Below, one piece after another: positions 9,463 through 18,746 of a stretch of 21,629 nt of DNA; within the stretch, counting starts at the first letter, position 1, and the number at the start of each line of letters is the position of its first letter. The translations under genes and the position numbers were made by a program. The stretch spans positions 1 to 21,629 of IMG/VR virus record IMGVR_UViG_3300030102_003985. One strand, given 5' to 3'. Origin of the DNA: a virus. The notes beneath the pieces were generated by a model. The model was not told the DNA's origin. It made no database searches and saw nothing but the letters and a program-made list of their open reading frames with translations.

Positions 9463-12400
9463 ATGCCTTTATTCAACAGGAACTTTACTAAAGGCAAGAT
9501 GAACAAAGATCTCGACGAGAGACTTGTACCTGCCGGAGAATATAGAGACGCTTTAAACGTAGAAGTATCTACATCTGAAGCTAGCAATGTTGGAGCTTTA
9601 CAAACAGTAAGAGGTAACGTAGAGCTTACTTCTGGCGCTGTGCCTGACGGAAGCTATTGTGTTGGATCTATAATTAACAACGAAGAAAATGCTATATACT
9701 ATTTAGTAGCTGGTGCAGATAGAGTTTTTCCAAACGGAGATTATACTAGAAGCGATTATATAATAAGATACAATATAGATACTTCTAGCATACAATATGT
9801 TTTTGTAGACACCTACGAAGGCTCATTAAGTATAGTTAACTCAGCTCAGGCAGGCGAAGATATTTATTACGAACTTACTAGTAGAAAAGGTTTAAAAACT
9901 AGAGACAGAGTAAGTATATACGACGCTGCTGGTAACTTTATATATAATTCTATTATCAAAGTGTACCTTAACGACTTTGACGAAAATAATCCTAATGGTG
10001 TTATAGTAGAAGGCACTGTAAACAATGCTGTTCCTCAAGGAGCTACTTTAGATTTTACTTCTGATAGACTGTTAAAATTTCAACAAGGAAGATTAATAAC
10101 AGGTATAAACATAATAGACGATATGTTGTTCTTTACGGACAACGCTAACGAGCCTAAAAAAATAAATATAACTAGATCGCTTTTAGGTACTGGAGGTCCA
10201 CTAGCTAGAGTTATGGGTAATGGTGAACACGCTGATTTACCTACTAGATTAGTTTCTGAAAAACCAGAAAGTAGTGTTAATGTTGAAGGCTTGCAAATAT
10301 ATGGCGAGCCTCATTTGTTTGCTAAAGAGCAAGACATAACAGTTATACGTAAAAATCCTAACGCTCCGCCAACTTTAAAAATGTCTGCAACAGCTGTTGA
10401 AAGACTAGACGAAGAAGGCAATGTTAATCCTACGCAGTCAACAGACACTTATACTAACGGCGCTGGATTTAATATATTTGGAGGCGATGAGACAGCTAGC
10501 ACACCTATTGATACGCAAACTGTAATGGCTTTTACAACCAACACAGCTGTAGACTGGAGAGTTGGTGATATAATAATAGGTAAGATACAAGAAGATAATG
10601 AGTTTGATTTTGAAACTCAAGACGCAGATATAAGGCTTCAAATAGTAGAGCCTCAATTAGGTAGCGCTGGTCTACCACCTTATGGGCCTACTGGTAACGG
10701 CTTGCCAAATCCAGAGAATGCTTGGTACGCTACTGTGCTCTCTAGAATAGACGAGTGGCCAACTGATTTTACTATTTTGTTAAAGCTTGAGCTTGAAGAT
10801 CCTTTGTTTGAGTTTAAGTTTCCAAGGTTTGCTTATAGATATAAATACATAGACGGTGAGTACTCTGCGTTTTCACCTTTTTCAGAAGTAGCTTTTTTAC
10901 CTGGCGCTTTTAGGTACAATGCTAAGCAAGGCTACAACTTAGGTATGGCTAACAGAATTAGAAAGCTTACTATAGAAAATTATTTACCTAAGCAAGAAAA
11001 TAGATGCGGCGATATTGTAGAAGTAGATATATTATACAAAGAAGAAGGCTCTACAACTGTTTACACTGTAGAAACTATAAAGCCTACATACGCGTCTCCT
11101 CAATGGAGTAGAGACGGTAGAGGAGCTTATGAAATTAACTCAGAACTTATACACGCTGTAGTTCCTTCTAATCAACTAATAAGACCTTACGATAATGTTC
11201 CTAGAGTAGCATTAGCACAAGAAGTTACAGCTAACAGAGTTGTATATGGTAATTACTTAAATAATTACGACATAAGACGTAATTTAGTAGAAGATCCTTT
11301 TCCAGTTAGAGCTTCACTAAATATAAACTCTAAAGATATAGAAAATGAAGAAGGCGTTTATTTTCCACAGCCTTCAGTTAAAACAATGCGCAAGTATCAG
11401 CTTGGTGTAGTTTATAGAGATGAGTACGGTAGAGAAACACCTGTGCTTACAGCAAATGATATAGGTACTTTAGATGTCCCTAAGCGTTTATGTACTAAAC
11501 AAAACTATTTTCAAGCAGAAGTTTTAAGTCCTGCTCCTTATTGGGCTAAGTCATTTAAGTTTTTTATAAAAGAAACTTCAAATGAATATTACAACTTAGC
11601 TATGGACCGTTGGTATAATGCTCAAGATGGTAACGTTTGGATTTCGTTTCCTTCATCTGAAAGAAACAAAGTAGATATTGATACGTTTTTAGAGCTTAAA
11701 AAAGGTCACGATGTAGATGACGCTGTAATAGATCCTGCTAGATACAAAATACTAGCTATAGAAAACGAAGCGCCTGAGTATATAAAAATAACTAGAAGGC
11801 CTAGAGGTAAAATACTTAATAACGCCACTGGAACACACACTAATGCGCAAAATGAATCTGCTAACTCTTTAATTGGTAGCATAATAGATTTTCCAACAGA
11901 AGGCGGTAATACTGTTTCTATACAACAATCTGTATTTGAGCAAGCTTTTGGAGCTACGGGAGACACAGGTCCATCAGCTCAAGAAATACTAGAAGCTGGG
12001 CCTGATGCTAGTATTAGATTTACTAACTTAATGGGTGAGCGAAGCAACTACTACAGAATTAGAAATATAAATCAAGATCCAGAAGATCAAGTAGGTTTTT
12101 ATCAAATAACTATAGAAGGTCAGTTTAAAGAAGATGTTATAGACATAATGGGTGATCCTAGCGGCGATGGCGCTGCTTTTTGGGCTGGAGTAAAACCTTT
12201 TACTCAGCTAGAAATAGTTGTAAATGTAAAAGAAGACAGACCAGAGTTTGATGGTAGATTTTTTGTAAAAATATATAAAGACTTACTTTTAGAACAATAT
12301 ATATTAAACTCTAACGAAGACGATTTAATACCTGTTTTTTCAATGGGTGTTTCTTATTTGGCAACTTATAAATCAGCCAGCGGTGGTGGTTTAATTAGAG

Positions 12401-15400
12401 GCGGAGGATATGATTATGTAGCTGGTAGAAGTGAAACTACAGGTATTACAGACTTCCTTGAATCAACTGGTATGTTTAATACTGACAATACTTATTATCA
12501 CCCTTGGGGTTATGATCCTAACAACGATGGAGTAGCTTACAAATGGGGAGATAATGCTTTAGTTGGTTCTGACGTGTACGGCCACGACTTTGCTTATACG
12601 CCTATACTATGGCAGCAAGCTGGAATAAGTAATGATTTTACTACCGGAGAGTTTAACAGTATATACATATCTGGTAATGGTACTGTTGAATACGATGAAA
12701 CAAGTGAAGAAGACGATCCAGAAAACGAGACAGAAGCTCTTTCAAGTTTTCTTGGTCCACTTTTTCAAGTTTTTTCGCTAGGTAATATACCTGGTTTAAT
12801 TCTCGCTCCAATTACATTACTTGCTAGCCAAAACCCTGGAATATTCTTTTGGAATGGTGGAGCATCAGGTGGTAAAGGAAGAGAGTGGTGGCATAAACAT
12901 TTTCACGGTCCTTTTGGTGAATATCCTAGAGTTTTTATAGATGATGCTTGGGCTTCTGACTGGAACGTTATAGCAGATAGTTTACCAGATAGCTTAGAAT
13001 ATGGTGACAATGATAGTGTGTCTTCAAAAAATAAAAACGTTTGGAGCAACGGTCACAAAAGTAATGTTCAAGTTGGCTTTGTTGGTGACAACAGCCCTAT
13101 ACTTGGAGGACTTATTCAAGCGCTTGCCGGGGCTTTTGGCGTAGGTGAAAGAGAACATGACGACGCTAGTTGGGGAGCAAGTACTCAAGGCTCGCCTCTT
13201 AATATGCCTGCTTGGGCTTCAAACGGATCTCAAGGTATACGAGGTAACAGAATAGATATAAGTGTTACAAATTTAGGGCCTGGTTGGCCAGATAAAAATG
13301 ATGGATACGAAGAGTCAAGTTCGATGAAGCTTTTTGGCGGTCCTGATGAACCTTCACCAGGAGCACACATGACAGTAAAAGAATTATTAAGAACTTTCTT
13401 TACGTACATGCAATCACCTGGTATTAAATTTAGATTTAGAAGTGATCCAGACAGAGAAGTTTACACTGTCAAAAGATCAGCTAGCCACTGGGGTATAACT
13501 AACTCAAGGCCTTACAAAGGTAATAATAGCTTTGGATTTAACACAGCTGACCAACGAGCTCAATACGCTACAAACAGAAGAAATAAATTTACAATAGAAG
13601 TTAATAAGCAGTTTGGTATGGGGCCTTCTGGTTGGCTACCTACGGCTAACATGGCTCACGATGGTAGCGAAGATACAGTTATACAAGTACTAGGCGCACC
13701 AACAGGTGATTTTGCAGACTTTAGCACGGATAATCCTGGTATATTTGAGACATATCCTAAAGAAGACATTGGCTTAGATATATACTATGAAATTAGTAGA
13801 GCTTATCCAGTGACTTTATCTTATGATAATGACGAGACTTTAGCACTAAAAAACTCTTTAATACTAGCTGTTAACGGAGTTGAAGGGGCTGTAAACTGTA
13901 CTATAACTAAATTTAACTTTAACGATCATAACGCTACTGCTACTGTTTCTGCTACGCTTTCTAATAACGCACCGCCGCTTAATGGAGGCAGTGAAATTTT
14001 AATAGAAGATAACTACGGAGGTCAAGTAGAAATATCAACGAGTGGTAACATTTACAACTATCAAGGGGAACTTAGAATAGCTGTAGATCCAAGGATTAAC
14101 AAAAGCAAGTTTATACTACCTTGGTTTAACTGTTATGCTTTTGGTAATGGCGTAGAATCTGATAGAATTAGAGACGATTTTAATCAGCCAACAATACAAA
14201 ACGGTGTTAAAGCTTCTACTGTTCTAGCAGAGCAATATAAAGAAGAAAGAAGAGGATCAGGTTTAATATACTCTGGTATATACAACTCAAGGTCTGGTGT
14301 AAATAGATTAAATCAATTTATAGCTGGAGAAAAAATAACTAAAGACTTAAATCCTGATAATGGAACAATACAAAAGCTGTTTAGCAGGTATACAAACCTT
14401 TTAGCTTTTTGTGAAGATAAAGTGTTAAAAATATTATCTAACAAAGACGCATTATTTAATGCTGATGGTAATAGTAATGTAACTGCTACAGAAAGAGTGT
14501 TAGGCGCGGTAACTCCTTTTGAGGGTGAGTATGGTATATCTAAAAACCCTGAGTCTTTTGCTGCTGATAACTATAGATGTTACTTTGCAGACAAGCAAAG
14601 AGGCGCTGTACTTAGACTGTCTGGTAACGGCATAACAGCTATATCAGATTATGGTATGAAAGATTATTTTACAGATCTATTTAAAATTTATACTAGTGAT
14701 GGCGCGACACTGTATGGTAGCTTTGATGGTAAAAAAGACGAGTATAATTTAAGTGTTACAGGTATTAATAGTACTGCTTCACTATTAGGGCCTCTTGCTA
14801 ATAAAGGAGCTTATAAAGACACAAGCACTACAATAAGTTTTTGCGAACCTTCAAATGGTTGGGTAAGCTTTAAGTCTTTTATACCTGAAAGTGCTGTAGA
14901 TATAAATAATGAATACTATACGTTTAATAACGGTAGTCTTTATATTCACCATAAAAATCCTAGTACAGCTTTATTTTACGGTAATCCTGTAAATACTAAT
15001 ACAGAGCCTTACGTAAGCGTAATTATCAACGATGCTCCTAGCTCTGACAAAGGTTTTCAAACCATAAAATACGAAGGTAGTCAAGCTAAGGTTGTTAGAG
15101 ATTTAAACTTAAACGATCCTTATTATGCGTTTAGCAAAACAGGCTGGTATTTGGACGATGTAAAGACTGATCTTCAGCAAGGTAGCGCTTATTGGTTTAA
15201 GAAAAAAGAAAGTTTTTGGTTTAGCTATTTAAGAGGTGAAGAAACTACAGAGTCTAACGTAGACACTTGCGAGTTTTCAGTACAAGGTATAGGTAATCCT
15301 TTTTCAGTAGAGCACTCTAGCCCTGATGAAAGACCACCAAGGCCTATAAGAGTAACTGTTAGAGAAGCTGGCGGTGATATAGATGGAACTAATTGGGAAG

Positions 15401-15405
15401 TATAA
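9463..15405 (+). CDS. Giant tail nozzle / tail stabilisation protein (1980 residues)
   Basis: Probably the nozzle of a short tail (functional analogue of T7 gp12 or P22 gp10). Residues 8-55 carry the hallmark FTKGKMNKDLDERLVPAGEY, then RDALNVEV and SNVGALQ, common to stabilisation proteins of crAss-like and many marine phages. A second conserved block spans residues about 1600-1740 (GLIYSGIYNSRSGVNRLNQF, later GEYGISKNPESF and SDYGMKDYF). Between them are beta-rich domains, for example around 455-490 (YRYKYIDGEYSAFSPF). Residues about 1093-1122 are unusually hydrophobic, followed by WWHKHFH at 1142-1148. At 1980 residues it is long for the family as I know it, the extra length lying in the middle. 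It starts at TAATATG after the connector gene. A fused receptor-binding or channel-gating function in the middle region is possible but unproven. Confidence 0.8.
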   Translation: MPLFNRNFTKGKMNKDLDERLVPAGEYRDALNVEVSTSEASNVGALQTVRGNVELTSGAVPDGSYCVGSIINNEENAIYYLVAGADRVFPNGDYTRSDYIIRYNIDTSSIQYVFVDTYEGSLSIVNSAQAGEDIYYELTSRKGLKTRDRVSIYDAAGNFIYNSIIKVYLNDFDENNPNGVIVEGTVNNAVPQGATLDFTSDRLLKFQQGRLITGINIIDDMLFFTDNANEPKKINITRSLLGTGGPLARVMGNGEHADLPTRLVSEKPESSVNVEGLQIYGEPHLFAKEQDITVIRKNPNAPPTLKMSATAVERLDEEGNVNPTQSTDTYTNGAGFNIFGGDETASTPIDTQTVMAFTTNTAVDWRVGDIIIGKIQEDNEFDFETQDADIRLQIVEPQLGSAGLPPYGPTGNGLPNPENAWYATVLSRIDEWPTDFTILLKLELEDPLFEFKFPRFAYRYKYIDGEYSAFSPFSEVAFLPGAFRYNAKQGYNLGMANRIRKLTIENYLPKQENRCGDIVEVDILYKEEGSTTVYTVETIKPTYASPQWSRDGRGAYEINSELIHAVVPSNQLIRPYDNVPRVALAQEVTANRVVYGNYLNNYDIRRNLVEDPFPVRASLNINSKDIENEEGVYFPQPSVKTMRKYQLGVVYRDEYGRETPVLTANDIGTLDVPKRLCTKQNYFQAEVLSPAPYWAKSFKFFIKETSNEYYNLAMDRWYNAQDGNVWISFPSSERNKVDIDTFLELKKGHDVDDAVIDPARYKILAIENEAPEYIKITRRPRGKILNNATGTHTNAQNESANSLIGSIIDFPTEGGNTVSIQQSVFEQAFGATGDTGPSAQEILEAGPDASIRFTNLMGERSNYYRIRNINQDPEDQVGFYQITIEGQFKEDVIDIMGDPSGDGAAFWAGVKPFTQLEIVVNVKEDRPEFDGRFFVKIYKDLLLEQYILNSNEDDLIPVFSMGVSYLATYKSASGGGLIRGGGYDYVAGRSETTGITDFLESTGMFNTDNTYYHPWGYDPNNDGVAYKWGDNALVGSDVYGHDFAYTPILWQQAGISNDFTTGEFNSIYISGNGTVEYDETSEEDDPENETEALSSFLGPLFQVFSLGNIPGLILAPITLLASQNPGIFFWNGGASGGKGREWWHKHFHGPFGEYPRVFIDDAWASDWNVIADSLPDSLEYGDNDSVSSKNKNVWSNGHKSNVQVGFVGDNSPILGGLIQALAGAFGVGEREHDDASWGASTQGSPLNMPAWASNGSQGIRGNRIDISVTNLGPGWPDKNDGYEESSSMKLFGGPDEPSPGAHMTVKELLRTFFTYMQSPGIKFRFRSDPDREVYTVKRSASHWGITNSRPYKGNNSFGFNTADQRAQYATNRRNKFTIEVNKQFGMGPSGWLPTANMAHDGSEDTVIQVLGAPTGDFADFSTDNPGIFETYPKEDIGLDIYYEISRAYPVTLSYDNDETLALKNSLILAVNGVEGAVNCTITKFNFNDHNATATVSATLSNNAPPLNGGSEILIEDNYGGQVEISTSGNIYNYQGELRIAVDPRINKSKFILPWFNCYAFGNGVESDRIRDDFNQPTIQNGVKASTVLAEQYKEERRGSGLIYSGIYNSRSGVNRLNQFIAGEKITKDLNPDNGTIQKLFSRYTNLLAFCEDKVLKILSNKDALFNADGNSNVTATERVLGAVTPFEGEYGISKNPESFAADNYRCYFADKQRGAVLRLSGNGITAISDYGMKDYFTDLFKIYTSDGATLYGSFDGKKDEYNLSVTGINSTASLLGPLANKGAYKDTSTTISFCEPSNGWVSFKSFIPESAVDINNEYYTFNNGSLYIHHKNPSTALFYGNPVNTNTEPYVSVIINDAPSSDKGFQTIKYEGSQAKVVRDLNLNDPYYAFSKTGWYLDDVKTDLQQGSAYWFKKKESFWFSYLRGEETTESNVDTCEFSVQGIGNPFSVEHSSPDERPPRPIRVTVREAGGDIDGTNWEV

Positions 15406-15411
15406 TATAAT

Positions 15412-17844
15412 ATGGCATTAGAAAATTGTAATGTAAGTCAAGTTCAAATTGAAGGAACTGAAGGTGAAACTCAACTATCAGGTTATGTTGATTTATTAAT
15501 TCAACCTTTAAATGGTACTACTGTATCGGCTAGCGAGTTATTTGTTGGAGATGGCGTAGCTCAAGGCGGAAATATATATGTTGGTGGTAATGTTACAAAC
15601 GGTGTAACACAAGTTCAATTTATAGATAATCCTGACGGTACTGTTACGGCTAGAGTTTCGTACGATACTTTTATCTTTGGTCAACTTAATAATGTAAACG
15701 AACTTAGAATAGACATTGATAGAGAAAGAAAGAAAGATCCACCACCACCACCTCCACCGCCACCTCCACCACCGCCACCTCCACCACCGCCTCAAGAAGA
15801 CGTGATACATGCTAAAATTTGGGACGTGTTTGTTGTAGATGAAGATCACGAAGATATTATAGATGTAGAAGATGTTTATAGTAGCTATAATCCTGAAGTG
15901 TTTGATGATGGTTTTGTGATTAATAGAAATGTAACTACAGATTATCCGCAGTACAATCAAGTTTCTACTATACCAGGTTTAGCAGAACAATTAGATGAGG
16001 TTAACGCTGAAAATGATTACATGATTACTAAAAGACATCATGTAAACAAAGTTCCGTATAACGGTTTTAGTTGGAAAGATCCGCAGAGAAGAAATAGATT
16101 TTTAGAAAGAACTGTAAAAATAAGTCAACAAGGTTTAGAGCAAGACAGATATTTTGAAGATGCTTTTGCTGTTGGTGTTCCTTTTTTAAATAATCCTTAT
16201 ATTACTAATCCTAGCGCGTCTTATTACGGCGATGAGTATAGTGAACTTCCAATATGGGAAATATCAAAGCTATACCCTCCGTACAACATTGGAACAAACA
16301 ATATGCAAAAGTTTGCTAACGTAAACTATGCTGTTGTAAACGAGCAAAGTAAAGTGTTTGACGATAGAGGAAATTTAATTGAGTTTAAAGTTGAATACTT
16401 TTTTATATCACCTAGGTTAGGCCAGCAAGTTTCACAGTACTTTACTAACGTTGGTCAATTTTACAATACTTATGCTTTAGCTCAAATCAATGGTGAAGAG
16501 TTTAATATAAACGACCAGATATACAGTACGCTAGTTGGAGCATCAGAAGAAGTACAACAAGCATTTCTTAACGGCACATATAGTGCGGATCATAACAACA
16601 ATGAACCTATTATATTTCCTAACTGGTTTAGTACAAACTTTCTTCAAGTACCTTTAACTATTCCTGATGATTATGCTTTACATCCATTTCCAAATAACTT
16701 ACAAAACCCTACAATTAATATGGGCGGCGGATTACTTTGTTTGCTTGCTTATAAGCTAGACGCTAAAAAAACAAAAAGCCCAGTACCTCACGGTAATGGA
16801 ACTTTTACTATTGCTCTTACTAACGCTCCTAAAAAGGTTCGCGATGCTAGATGGAAGTTTGAAAAAGCTCATTACTTAGGCGGTTCTAACGATATTGTTA
16901 TAAAGTCTGATTTAAGATCAGAGTTTGAAGTTGAAGTTATTGAAAACAATACTAAGTCGTATTACAACTTTGAAGAAAAAGTTTTTAAAAGTGAAAGAAG
17001 TTCTAAGGTTGTTGAGTCAACAGCGGCTGTAACTGAACTAGAAGTAATAATACCTTCTAGATCAAAAACTACAGAGACTTGCGCTACAGTTGCCGGACAA
17101 ACATCTTTAACTTTAGCTACAGCTAACGACAATATAAAAGCTGGTATGCGTGTAATTGGAACTGGTATACCAAACAACACGGTTGTTAAAAAAGAGCGAT
17201 TTATAGATGGTAGACTTTCTACCAATAATATAGAGATAAGTAAAGCCGCTACTGCTACTTCAGGAGCTGTTGCACTAGAGTTTGAGGGTGAAGATACTTA
17301 TACTTTTAATATACGACCTCTTGCTAACAACGTGTCAAATACCACTGTAGAAGACAAAGCTATTAGTGATACTTTTGGCATATCAAACCTTGTTTCTGTT
17401 GGTATTAAATTTACTAGCACTAACTCGGCTTACACTTTGCCAGCTTCTACCACTTTATTAACAGCAATGCCAGGCGCTGAGTATAAAAAGTTTAGTAGTC
17501 AATACGTTAACTCAGACTTTTCTTTACTAACTAGTATAGCTAATAACTATAAAACATATACTATAGAAGCTGTTGTTACTGGAAAAACTGCTGTATCACT
17601 AGGCACAGCAACAGCTAATGTTAACAGGCTACAATCTGAAGATTATATTCAGTTAAGAGATAATCCTATATCAAGCGATCATAAGAAAAATTACAACGTA
17701 GATTTTACTAACAATATAAAGTCTGTAACTTACGACGCTGGAAATACTAAAGTAATAGTTACTGGAGAAATAATCATACACAAGATGCCTAACAAAAGCA
17801 CAGACTTATTAATAGATTTAGATAACTTATTTACACTATCATAA
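15412..17844 (+). CDS. Large virion (tail-associated) protein with an 18-proline hinge
   Basis: An 810-residue protein of unrecognised family, placed between nozzle and internal protein genes and therefore probably a tail or tail-fibre-like component. Residues 1-109 form a Gly/Val/Thr-rich beta domain (GYVDLLIQPLNGTTV, NIYVGGNVTNGV). Residues 110-127 are 18 consecutive prolines between a basic DRERKKD and an acidic QEDV. Residues about 150-480 form a mixed domain rich in Tyr/Asn/Pro (DAFAVGVPFLNNPYITNP). Residues about 490-810 look beta-rich and repetitive, Thr/Ala/Asn-rich, ending in EIIIHKMPNKSTD. The architecture is virion-binding head, rigid proline rod, distal domains, which suits a fibre or spike. 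No lyase or hydrolase motif was identified. The start follows TAATATAATATG with no Shine-Dalgarno. Confidence 0.65.
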   Translation: MALENCNVSQVQIEGTEGETQLSGYVDLLIQPLNGTTVSASELFVGDGVAQGGNIYVGGNVTNGVTQVQFIDNPDGTVTARVSYDTFIFGQLNNVNELRIDIDRERKKDPPPPPPPPPPPPPPPPPPQEDVIHAKIWDVFVVDEDHEDIIDVEDVYSSYNPEVFDDGFVINRNVTTDYPQYNQVSTIPGLAEQLDEVNAENDYMITKRHHVNKVPYNGFSWKDPQRRNRFLERTVKISQQGLEQDRYFEDAFAVGVPFLNNPYITNPSASYYGDEYSELPIWEISKLYPPYNIGTNNMQKFANVNYAVVNEQSKVFDDRGNLIEFKVEYFFISPRLGQQVSQYFTNVGQFYNTYALAQINGEEFNINDQIYSTLVGASEEVQQAFLNGTYSADHNNNEPIIFPNWFSTNFLQVPLTIPDDYALHPFPNNLQNPTINMGGGLLCLLAYKLDAKKTKSPVPHGNGTFTIALTNAPKKVRDARWKFEKAHYLGGSNDIVIKSDLRSEFEVEVIENNTKSYYNFEEKVFKSERSSKVVESTAAVTELEVIIPSRSKTTETCATVAGQTSLTLATANDNIKAGMRVIGTGIPNNTVVKKERFIDGRLSTNNIEISKAATATSGAVALEFEGEDTYTFNIRPLANNVSNTTVEDKAISDTFGISNLVSVGIKFTSTNSAYTLPASTTLLTAMPGAEYKKFSSQYVNSDFSLLTSIANNYKTYTIEAVVTGKTAVSLGTATANVNRLQSEDYIQLRDNPISSDHKKNYNVDFTNNIKSVTYDAGNTKVIVTGEIIIHKMPNKSTDLLIDLDNLFTLS
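15739..15792 (+). repeat. Proline-codon tract with 15-base tandem units
   Basis: Eighteen proline codons in a row, made of CCA, CCT and CCG. A 15-base unit, cca ccg cca cct cca, is repeated exactly at 15754-15768 and 15769-15783, with a partial third copy. It is a GC-rich island in AT-rich DNA and is prone to slippage. Confidence 0.95.
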
Positions 17845-17845
17845 T

Positions 17846-18241
17846 ATGCCTCCTCCATTTACACTAACATTAACATTTGCTATACCTATAAACGTTTCAG
17901 TTTCTGTAGGTGATACTGTTTATTTTGTAAACACAGCTAACCTAGGTAATAACGTTATAAACTCTAACAACTTAGACGAAATAGGAGAAATAACTTCTAT
18001 AACTACTAATCAACAGATCATAAACAATGTTAATACAACAGTGACCACAATGCTAGTAACAACTAATTTGTTTAATGTTGAAGCGCCTACTAATAGTTCT
18101 TTTATATTTTTTAGTAAAAACAACCTAAATAATTTATCATCTATACTAGGGTATTATGGTGAGTTTAAATTTAAAAACGATTCACCAGAAGAAGGAGAAT
18201 TGTTTAGTGTAACTGTAGATGCTTTTGAAAGTAGCAAATAA
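17846..18241 (+). CDS. Small beta-rich virion protein
   Basis: A 131-residue protein starting MPPPFTLTLTF. Residues about 5-70 read as alternating beta strands with a VSVGDTVYFVN turn, like a small SH3-like barrel. The C-terminus (GYYGEFKFKNDSPEEGELFS, then ESSK) matches a pattern I associate with small structural proteins in marine tailed phages, roughly GYYxExKxxN.S.E.aELFsV....SSK. The gene begins one base after the previous stop (TAATATG), so it is probably translated with the 810-residue protein and may be its partner at the tail. Three consecutive prolines at residues 2-4 are unusual this close to a start. The virion role is inferred; the precise function is unknown. Confidence 0.6.
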   Translation: MPPPFTLTLTFAIPINVSVSVGDTVYFVNTANLGNNVINSNNLDEIGEITSITTNQQIINNVNTTVTTMLVTTNLFNVEAPTNSSFIFFSKNNLNNLSSILGYYGEFKFKNDSPEEGELFSVTVDAFESSK

Positions 18242-18275: not shown

Positions 18276-18746
18276 ATGAGTAATAAAATCGAAAAGCGTA
18301 AAGATAATCAAGTATCTACGCCTCGAGAAATAATATTAGAACTTCAGCAATATCTAGTAGATAGGGCCGATGGGGTAAATATTGTAAAGGGAAGAGTAAC
18401 GGATTTGTTCCCGCTAAAGCATACATTTGCAGATAATATATATGTTAGGCAAATGTCAATGCAGCAAAACTCTTTTCTTGTTGGAGCAATACACAAACAC
18501 GAACATGTTTGGTTTTTACTTACCGGCCACATAACGGTCGTTACAGAAGACACAGTTCAAGAATACATAGCTCCTTGTTATACAGTATCAAACCCAGGAA
18601 GTAAAAGAGTAATCTTTGCTAATGAAGATTCTATATTCGTAAACGTACATAAAAATCCTGACAACACAAAAAATATAGACGTTTTGGATAAACAAATAGT
18701 TTGCGATACATGGGAAGAATATAACGAATATATTAAAAATAAATAA
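18276..18746 (+). CDS. Cupin-fold protein
   Basis: A 156-residue single-domain protein. Cupin motif 1 is visible as HKHEHVWFLLTG: H73, H75 and H77 with G84. Motif 2 follows as SNPGSKRVIFANEDSIFVNVH, shown here as P107, G108 and H125. The usual glutamate of motif 1 is not in the standard place, so metal binding could use H73, H75, H77 and H125, or be lost. Residues 1-40 are charged and helical (PREIILELQQYLVDRADG). The substrate is unknown; cupins include epimerases, dioxygenases and pure binding proteins. It lies among virion genes, and the next gene starts one base after its stop (TAATATG). It may be a structural beta barrel, a sugar- or metal-handling virion component, or an auxiliary metabolic gene; the sequence does not decide. 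Confidence 0.72.
   Translation: MSNKIEKRKDNQVSTPREIILELQQYLVDRADGVNIVKGRVTDLFPLKHTFADNIYVRQMSMQQNSFLVGAIHKHEHVWFLLTGHITVVTEDTVQEYIAPCYTVSNPGSKRVIFANEDSIFVNVHKNPDNTKNIDVLDKQIVCDTWEEYNEYIKNK

Follow-up and report, generated by a model that had tools for sequence, protein, structure and literature searches.

The muzzle of phage PhicrAss001, gp44 (1371 aa; PDB 7QOK), is hexameric and carries its gate in a loop of propeller blade 4, according to the portions of the published account used here (PMC10172136). A large crass-domain insertion with variable tip loops stands between the parts of the gp44 propeller, the IG2/crass borders being given as residues 318-1021, and the same portions describe the crass domain as containing a small barrel and as lying at the tail tip, where it has exposed loops and insertions of varying length and likely contacts the cell. 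At the tail tip of phi29, the protein gp9 is likewise a hexamer, and its long hydrophobic distal loop is reported to be membrane-active; in the excerpted account (PMC6542822), the L-loops are bundled as helices within the knob tube until ejection, after which they make up a hydrophobic helix barrel. T7 gp12 is a seven-bladed propeller in which the tip extends from a blade-3 loop and faces the outer membrane (PMC6702177); this tip is a small barrel, and the excerpted T7 account describes no hydrophobic membrane loop. Alternating histidines in phage tail proteins are known from T4 gp37 and from Alteromonas phage R22Y gp12, where repeated, conserved HxH motifs bind iron on trimeric fibres with octahedral coordination, as given in the part of the source consulted (PMC11705849).

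Here we analyzed a viral stretch of 21,629 nucleotides (IMG/VR record IMGVR_UViG_3300030102_003985; the window), in which an earlier note, made from the sequence, had drawn attention to a hydrophobic segment followed by WWHKHFH inside a giant nozzle protein.

Results

A crAss-type muzzle gene and its neighbors

The assignment as a giant nozzle protein held, and by its profile matches the 1980-residue product of the ORF at 9463-15405 is a crAss-type muzzle. A Pfam search returned crAss_MUZ and crAss_MUZ_C (PF25731, 1.1e-9, and PF25729, 1.9e-8), both passing the curated cut-offs, and the protein matched phrog_14478 at 3.9e-132. When a 55-row profile was compared with crAss001 gp44 by hhalign, the C-terminal propeller (residues 1624-1872) aligned with gp44 residues 1053-1279 (E 3.4e-7, probability 93, 211 columns), placing both proteins in the same family. 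Searching the AlphaFold model of residues 618-1582 (model 1) with Foldseek against BFVD gave a protein annotated as a crassvirus muzzle at 9.3e-38; against the PDB no match fell below an E of 0.001 and gp44 was not among the matches listed. PDB sequence searches with the 1980-aa protein and with alignment A1 retrieved no muzzle, though gp44 is present in that set. By tblastn, the muzzle found 87 phage records, every one below 60% identity and annotated as structural proteins; 68 of these were Flavobacterium phages and 15 Cellulophaga phages. The record of phi38:1 (L170) places this phage in Pervagoviridae, outside Crassvirales, though the muzzle of the window scores above the Pfam cut-offs for crassviruses.

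In crAss001, the tail tubular gene gp43 is followed by gp44. The two genes 5' of the muzzle gene in the window match phrog_14543 and phrog_13977, both of which are named merely as virion structural proteins. Directly 3' of the muzzle gene, positions 15412-17844 encode an 810-aa protein in which about 18 prolines follow one another near residue 110; neither Pfam nor PHROG gave a match below 0.1 for this protein. Next comes a 131-aa ORF (17846-18241) that weakly resembles positions 142-238 of phrog_18548 (0.0011). Residues 1789-1945 at the muzzle C-terminus match this family too, at positions 3-136 (4.1e-12), which gives the impression of a single protein elsewhere that the 810-aa gene divides here. 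Farther 3' (18276-18746) lies a 156-aa protein of the short tail fibre family phrog_12032 (6.9e-27).

Table 1. Features of the muzzle gene, with residues of the 1980-aa protein and positions in the window.
Feature	Residues	Positions	Strand	Basis
Muzzle (tail nozzle) protein gene		9463..15405	+	1980 aa; Pfam, phrog_14478, gp44 propeller match
Region matching gp44 IG2 + crass domain (gp44 332-1008)	618-1577	11314..14193	+	AlphaFold model; weak VIA match 7qok_A
Conserved strand PEFDGRFFVKIYKD preceding loop A	927-940	12241..12282	+	G931, F933, F934 in 55/55 rows
Loop A, hypervariable inserted loop	975-1141	12385..12885	+	Length variation in 55 rows; pLDDT 30-40 in model 1
Acidic stretch VEYDETSEEDDPENETE just N-terminal of the hydrophobic segment	1075-1091	12685..12735	+	Sequence
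Hydrophobic, charge-free segment of loop A	1092-1137	12736..12873	+	Sequence, shuffles, alignment; low-confidence helix 1087-1104 (model 2)
Short helix with near-invariant W1143 and non-conserved H1144, H1146, H1148	1138-1148	12874..12906	+	Helix in both models; 55-row alignment
Conserved FID strand RVFIDDAWA, past loop A	1156-1164	12928..12954	+	D1160 49/55, F1158 42/55; strand in model 1
Second, milder hydrophobic insert (NSPILGGLIQALAGAFGVG)	1210-1228	13090..13146	+	KD 1.13; low-confidence helix 1212-1224 (model 2)

The hydrophobic segment is an insertion in a hypervariable loop

Residues 1093-1122 (LSSFLGPLFQVFSLGNIPGLILAPITLLAS) had been described as nearly all hydrophobic, Gly or Pro. 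The segment is there, and the wording was slightly strong, as 23 of the 30 residues are of these kinds and the other seven are S, Q, N or T. The best 19-residue Kyte-Doolittle (KD) window, residues 1103-1121, has a mean of 1.79, the maximum of the whole protein; 1499 of 5000 whole-protein shuffles reached this value, so the hydropathy peak alone is not unusual for the protein. Within loop A the same value was reached in only 36 of 5000 shuffles, which makes it unusual for the loop. The segment is also a run of 46 residues free of D, E, K and R, matched in 18 of 5000 shuffles; as a marker this property was dropped because charge-free runs are common in the loops of the family, among which the 1980-aa protein ranks fourth of 102. 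The GC content of the insert (0.391) is close to that of the whole gene (0.366), so that composition shows no sign of foreign DNA. Ten of the 18 residues from residue 1075 on are acidic, and this adjoining acidic stretch could serve as a pH or cation switch.

Across 55 aligned muzzles, the order is the conserved PEFDGRFFVKI (927-937), a loop that differs greatly in length, the near-invariant W1143 and the FID strand. The spacing from F934 to W1143 is 208 residues here; the shortest relatives have 42-44, and the longest of the 55 rows has 219. The columns of the hydrophobic core are occupied in about two of the rows, the 1980-aa protein and L002, so the block is nearly unique, is absent from the shorter relatives and is a lineage-specific insertion, not a conserved domain present in all family members. 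A scan with residues 1001-1300 retrieved no relative, tblastn of residues 1001-1400 against phages matched nothing, and a 63-residue block searched against the L001 and L002 contigs gave no match. The second insert of Table 1 is missing from L001-L003.

Model 1 (mean pLDDT 67.6) resolved the core of the region and left residues 971-1136 unresolved (pLDDT 30-40), while model 2 had a mean pLDDT of 53.3, with the helices of low confidence given in Table 1. VIA-align matched model 1 to chain 7qok_A at residues 332-1008 of gp44 (Z 4.5, rmsd 5.3, 234 aligned), a weak match that many unrelated small domains exceed in score; translation-factor-like barrels were also among the matches, in loose agreement with the published small barrel of the crass domain. 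With model 2, VIA found no muzzle, gp44 included, among the matches listed, which excludes nothing. Because the VIA range fits the published borders of the IG2/crass region (PMC10172136) and the protein is colinear with the propeller, loop A probably lies in the distal IG2/crass domain and not in the blade-4 gate. By colinearity, the hydrophobic segment would fall in the insertion of blade 3, with blade 4 C-terminal to the region; the tip of T7 gp12 likewise arises from blade 3 (PMC6702177).

Hydrophobic and amphipathic inserts recur among the nearest phages

The subclade around the 1980-aa protein was enlarged by scans with its nearest relatives, and a tree of 29 muzzles was built without the variable middle that holds the loops. 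The tree contained an 11-row subclade (support 100/100) in which the 1980-aa protein is the first branch and the other ten rows are grouped at 93/94; within it stand L025 with L098; L081 with L083 and L162; and a set made up of L084, L088, L002 and the pair L001 with L003. Inserts of hydrophobic or amphipathic character and unrelated sequence recur in these nearest phages, either in loop A or in the second loop, past the HYGI strand. In loop A, L084 has ALLLLTPALLIQYGVALTI, whose best 19-residue KD window (1.95) is above that of the 1980-aa protein (1.79), and L002 and L088 have an LLLLPIY segment (1.59 in both). L083 and L162 have amphipathic helices in loop A, with moments of 0.69 and 0.66 that rank first and second of the 29 proteins once helices are limited to those with a mean hydrophobicity over 0.4 and without an inner proline. 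In the second loop, L081 has NFILPPFSLVAAQAAVL (1.69), and the inserts of L001 and L003 are weakly hydrophobic (segment maxima 0.90 and 0.73). No hydrophobic or amphipathic insert was visible on inspection of L025 and L098. The stricter pattern of exactly one insert in every subclade member thus fails, given the weak inserts of L001/L003 and their absence from L025/L098.

For comparison with the family, 102 crass segments dereplicated from 110 distinct ones were used (L088 was removed by dereplication). Windows with a KD of at least 1.4 were found in 4 of 10 subclade rows and in 1 of 92 others (L058), giving a Fisher p-value of 2.3e-4 and a rank-test p-value of 1e-5, which are guides, since the data that suggested the pattern also served to test it and the related rows are not independent. 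The count covers segments with motif anchors; those without, cultured phages included, stand outside it. Whole-protein hydrophobicity of the cultured or complete relatives phi38:1, elemoC, Panino and ctfjg026 and of gp44 gave no window above 1.47; gp44, unlike the 1980-aa protein, lacks such a loop segment and has a best window of 1.07. Across the family, long inserted loops usually lack hydrophobic segments. The inserts form five groups, and no cross-group pair reached 50 or fewer of 1000 shuffles; since no similarity is detectable between groups, the inserts must have been gained repeatedly or have diverged very fast. The crass segment of the L031 muzzle has a Cys-rich, charge-free insert of 59 residues.

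The histidines beside W1143 are not conserved

The WWHKHFH motif with H1144, H1146 and H1148 was found as described, within REWWHKHFHGP, and the earlier note had considered it a possible metal site. In favor of an HxH-type site as in trimeric tail fibres, HxHxH is uncommon for the composition of the protein (7 of 5000 shuffles, with 19 His). Against this, His stands at 1144, 1146 and 1148 in only 4, 2 and 1 of the 55 rows, respectively, no HxHxH was found in the remaining rows, and residues 1138-1148 are helical in both models (pLDDT near 70 in model 1 and near 49 in model 2), a geometry that, unlike a strand, would not place the three side chains in alternation along a single face. Moreover, the fibre sites are repeated, conserved motifs on trimers with octahedral coordination (PMC11705849, in part), whereas here a single non-conserved motif on a predicted helix belongs to a protein whose crAss001 counterpart is hexameric. 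A fibre-type metal site is not supported, and we regard it as highly improbable; the three histidines look like a coincidence. By the alignment, W1143, kept in 50 of 55 rows, is the conserved element there and a putative anchor beside the following strand.

Discussion

With only slightly more confidence than doubt, we favor the reading that the hydrophobic segment is a membrane-contacting loop of the tail tip, which would work like the phi29 gp9 loop. Inserted in a hypervariable loop of the crass domain, which would be the distal end of a presumably hexameric tail muzzle, the segment would be present in six copies, one per subunit, which could form a greasy patch or a set of helical hairpins. 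When the tail lands, the patch or hairpins would touch or enter the host outer membrane, and this contact would help to anchor the tail and to trigger the change by which the propeller gate opens; W1143 would be the conserved anchor adjoining the following strand, with the His residues on its helix incidental. The earlier note had left the choice between a membrane-contacting tip and a gate in the nozzle lumen, and the tip is the better of the two, being consistent with a distal IG2/crass position (from colinearity and a weak structural match), with the insertion and with the recurrence in the subclade. Of the two observations with which the note would have refuted its idea, a buried domain shared by all family members and histidines that are not conserved, the second was made, while the block proved nearly unique. 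Recurring, unrelated hydrophobic or amphipathic segments in a hypervariable tip loop are in keeping with selection on a physical property, the simplest candidate being membrane contact. The likeness to phi29 gp9 is one of mechanism, not of kinship: the phi29 loops are luminal before ejection, whereas for the muzzle loop we infer the site and the function, be it touching the membrane, forming a pore or triggering the gate.

A gate proper is not supported: in the published structure (PMC10172136, in the portions used), it is blade 4 of the gp44 propeller that supplies the gating loop, C-terminal to the region and apart from the blade 3 insertion where colinearity puts the segment. The same placement weighs against a luminal hydrophobic plug that leaves on ejection, so that the segment would be both plug and membrane probe; the phi29 L-loops, passing from a bundle in the knob tube to a barrel after ejection (PMC6542822, in part), give a precedent for such behavior, and we still judge it quite improbable. 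A role without any membrane, in which the segment forms the interior of a small inserted domain or an interface with a neighboring muzzle subunit, a tail fibre or another tip protein, is a possibility that we take seriously while doubting it. Loop A, at 167 residues, could fold alone, the models offer low-confidence helices at most, and long inserted muzzle loops usually do without hydrophobic segments; what recurs in the subclade, however, is hydrophobicity or amphipathicity and not a shared sequence, and contact with a fixed partner should keep an interface conserved in sequence.

Beyond the proposed membrane-contacting loop of this one protein, a wider proposal, which we think unlikely as it stands, concerns the subclade of uncultured crAss-like phages. 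On several independent occasions these phages would have acquired helical loops, hydrophobic or amphipathic, at the tip of the muzzle, and the loops would enter the outer membrane and make up the wall of a transient entry pore, a mechanism resembling that of phi29 that would have evolved separately on the crass fold. Our search of the literature on hydrophobic, amphipathic or membrane-insertion loops of crassvirus muzzles and on podophage nozzle or tip loops found no title on such a feature. Contact of the muzzle crass domain with the cell is so far a proposal, made in the portions of the structural account used here (PMC10172136). The tip loops of the subclade, with segments that look membrane-active, provide specific peptides for membrane-binding tests and would let one ask whether short-tailed phages have evolved membrane-touching tip loops more than once.
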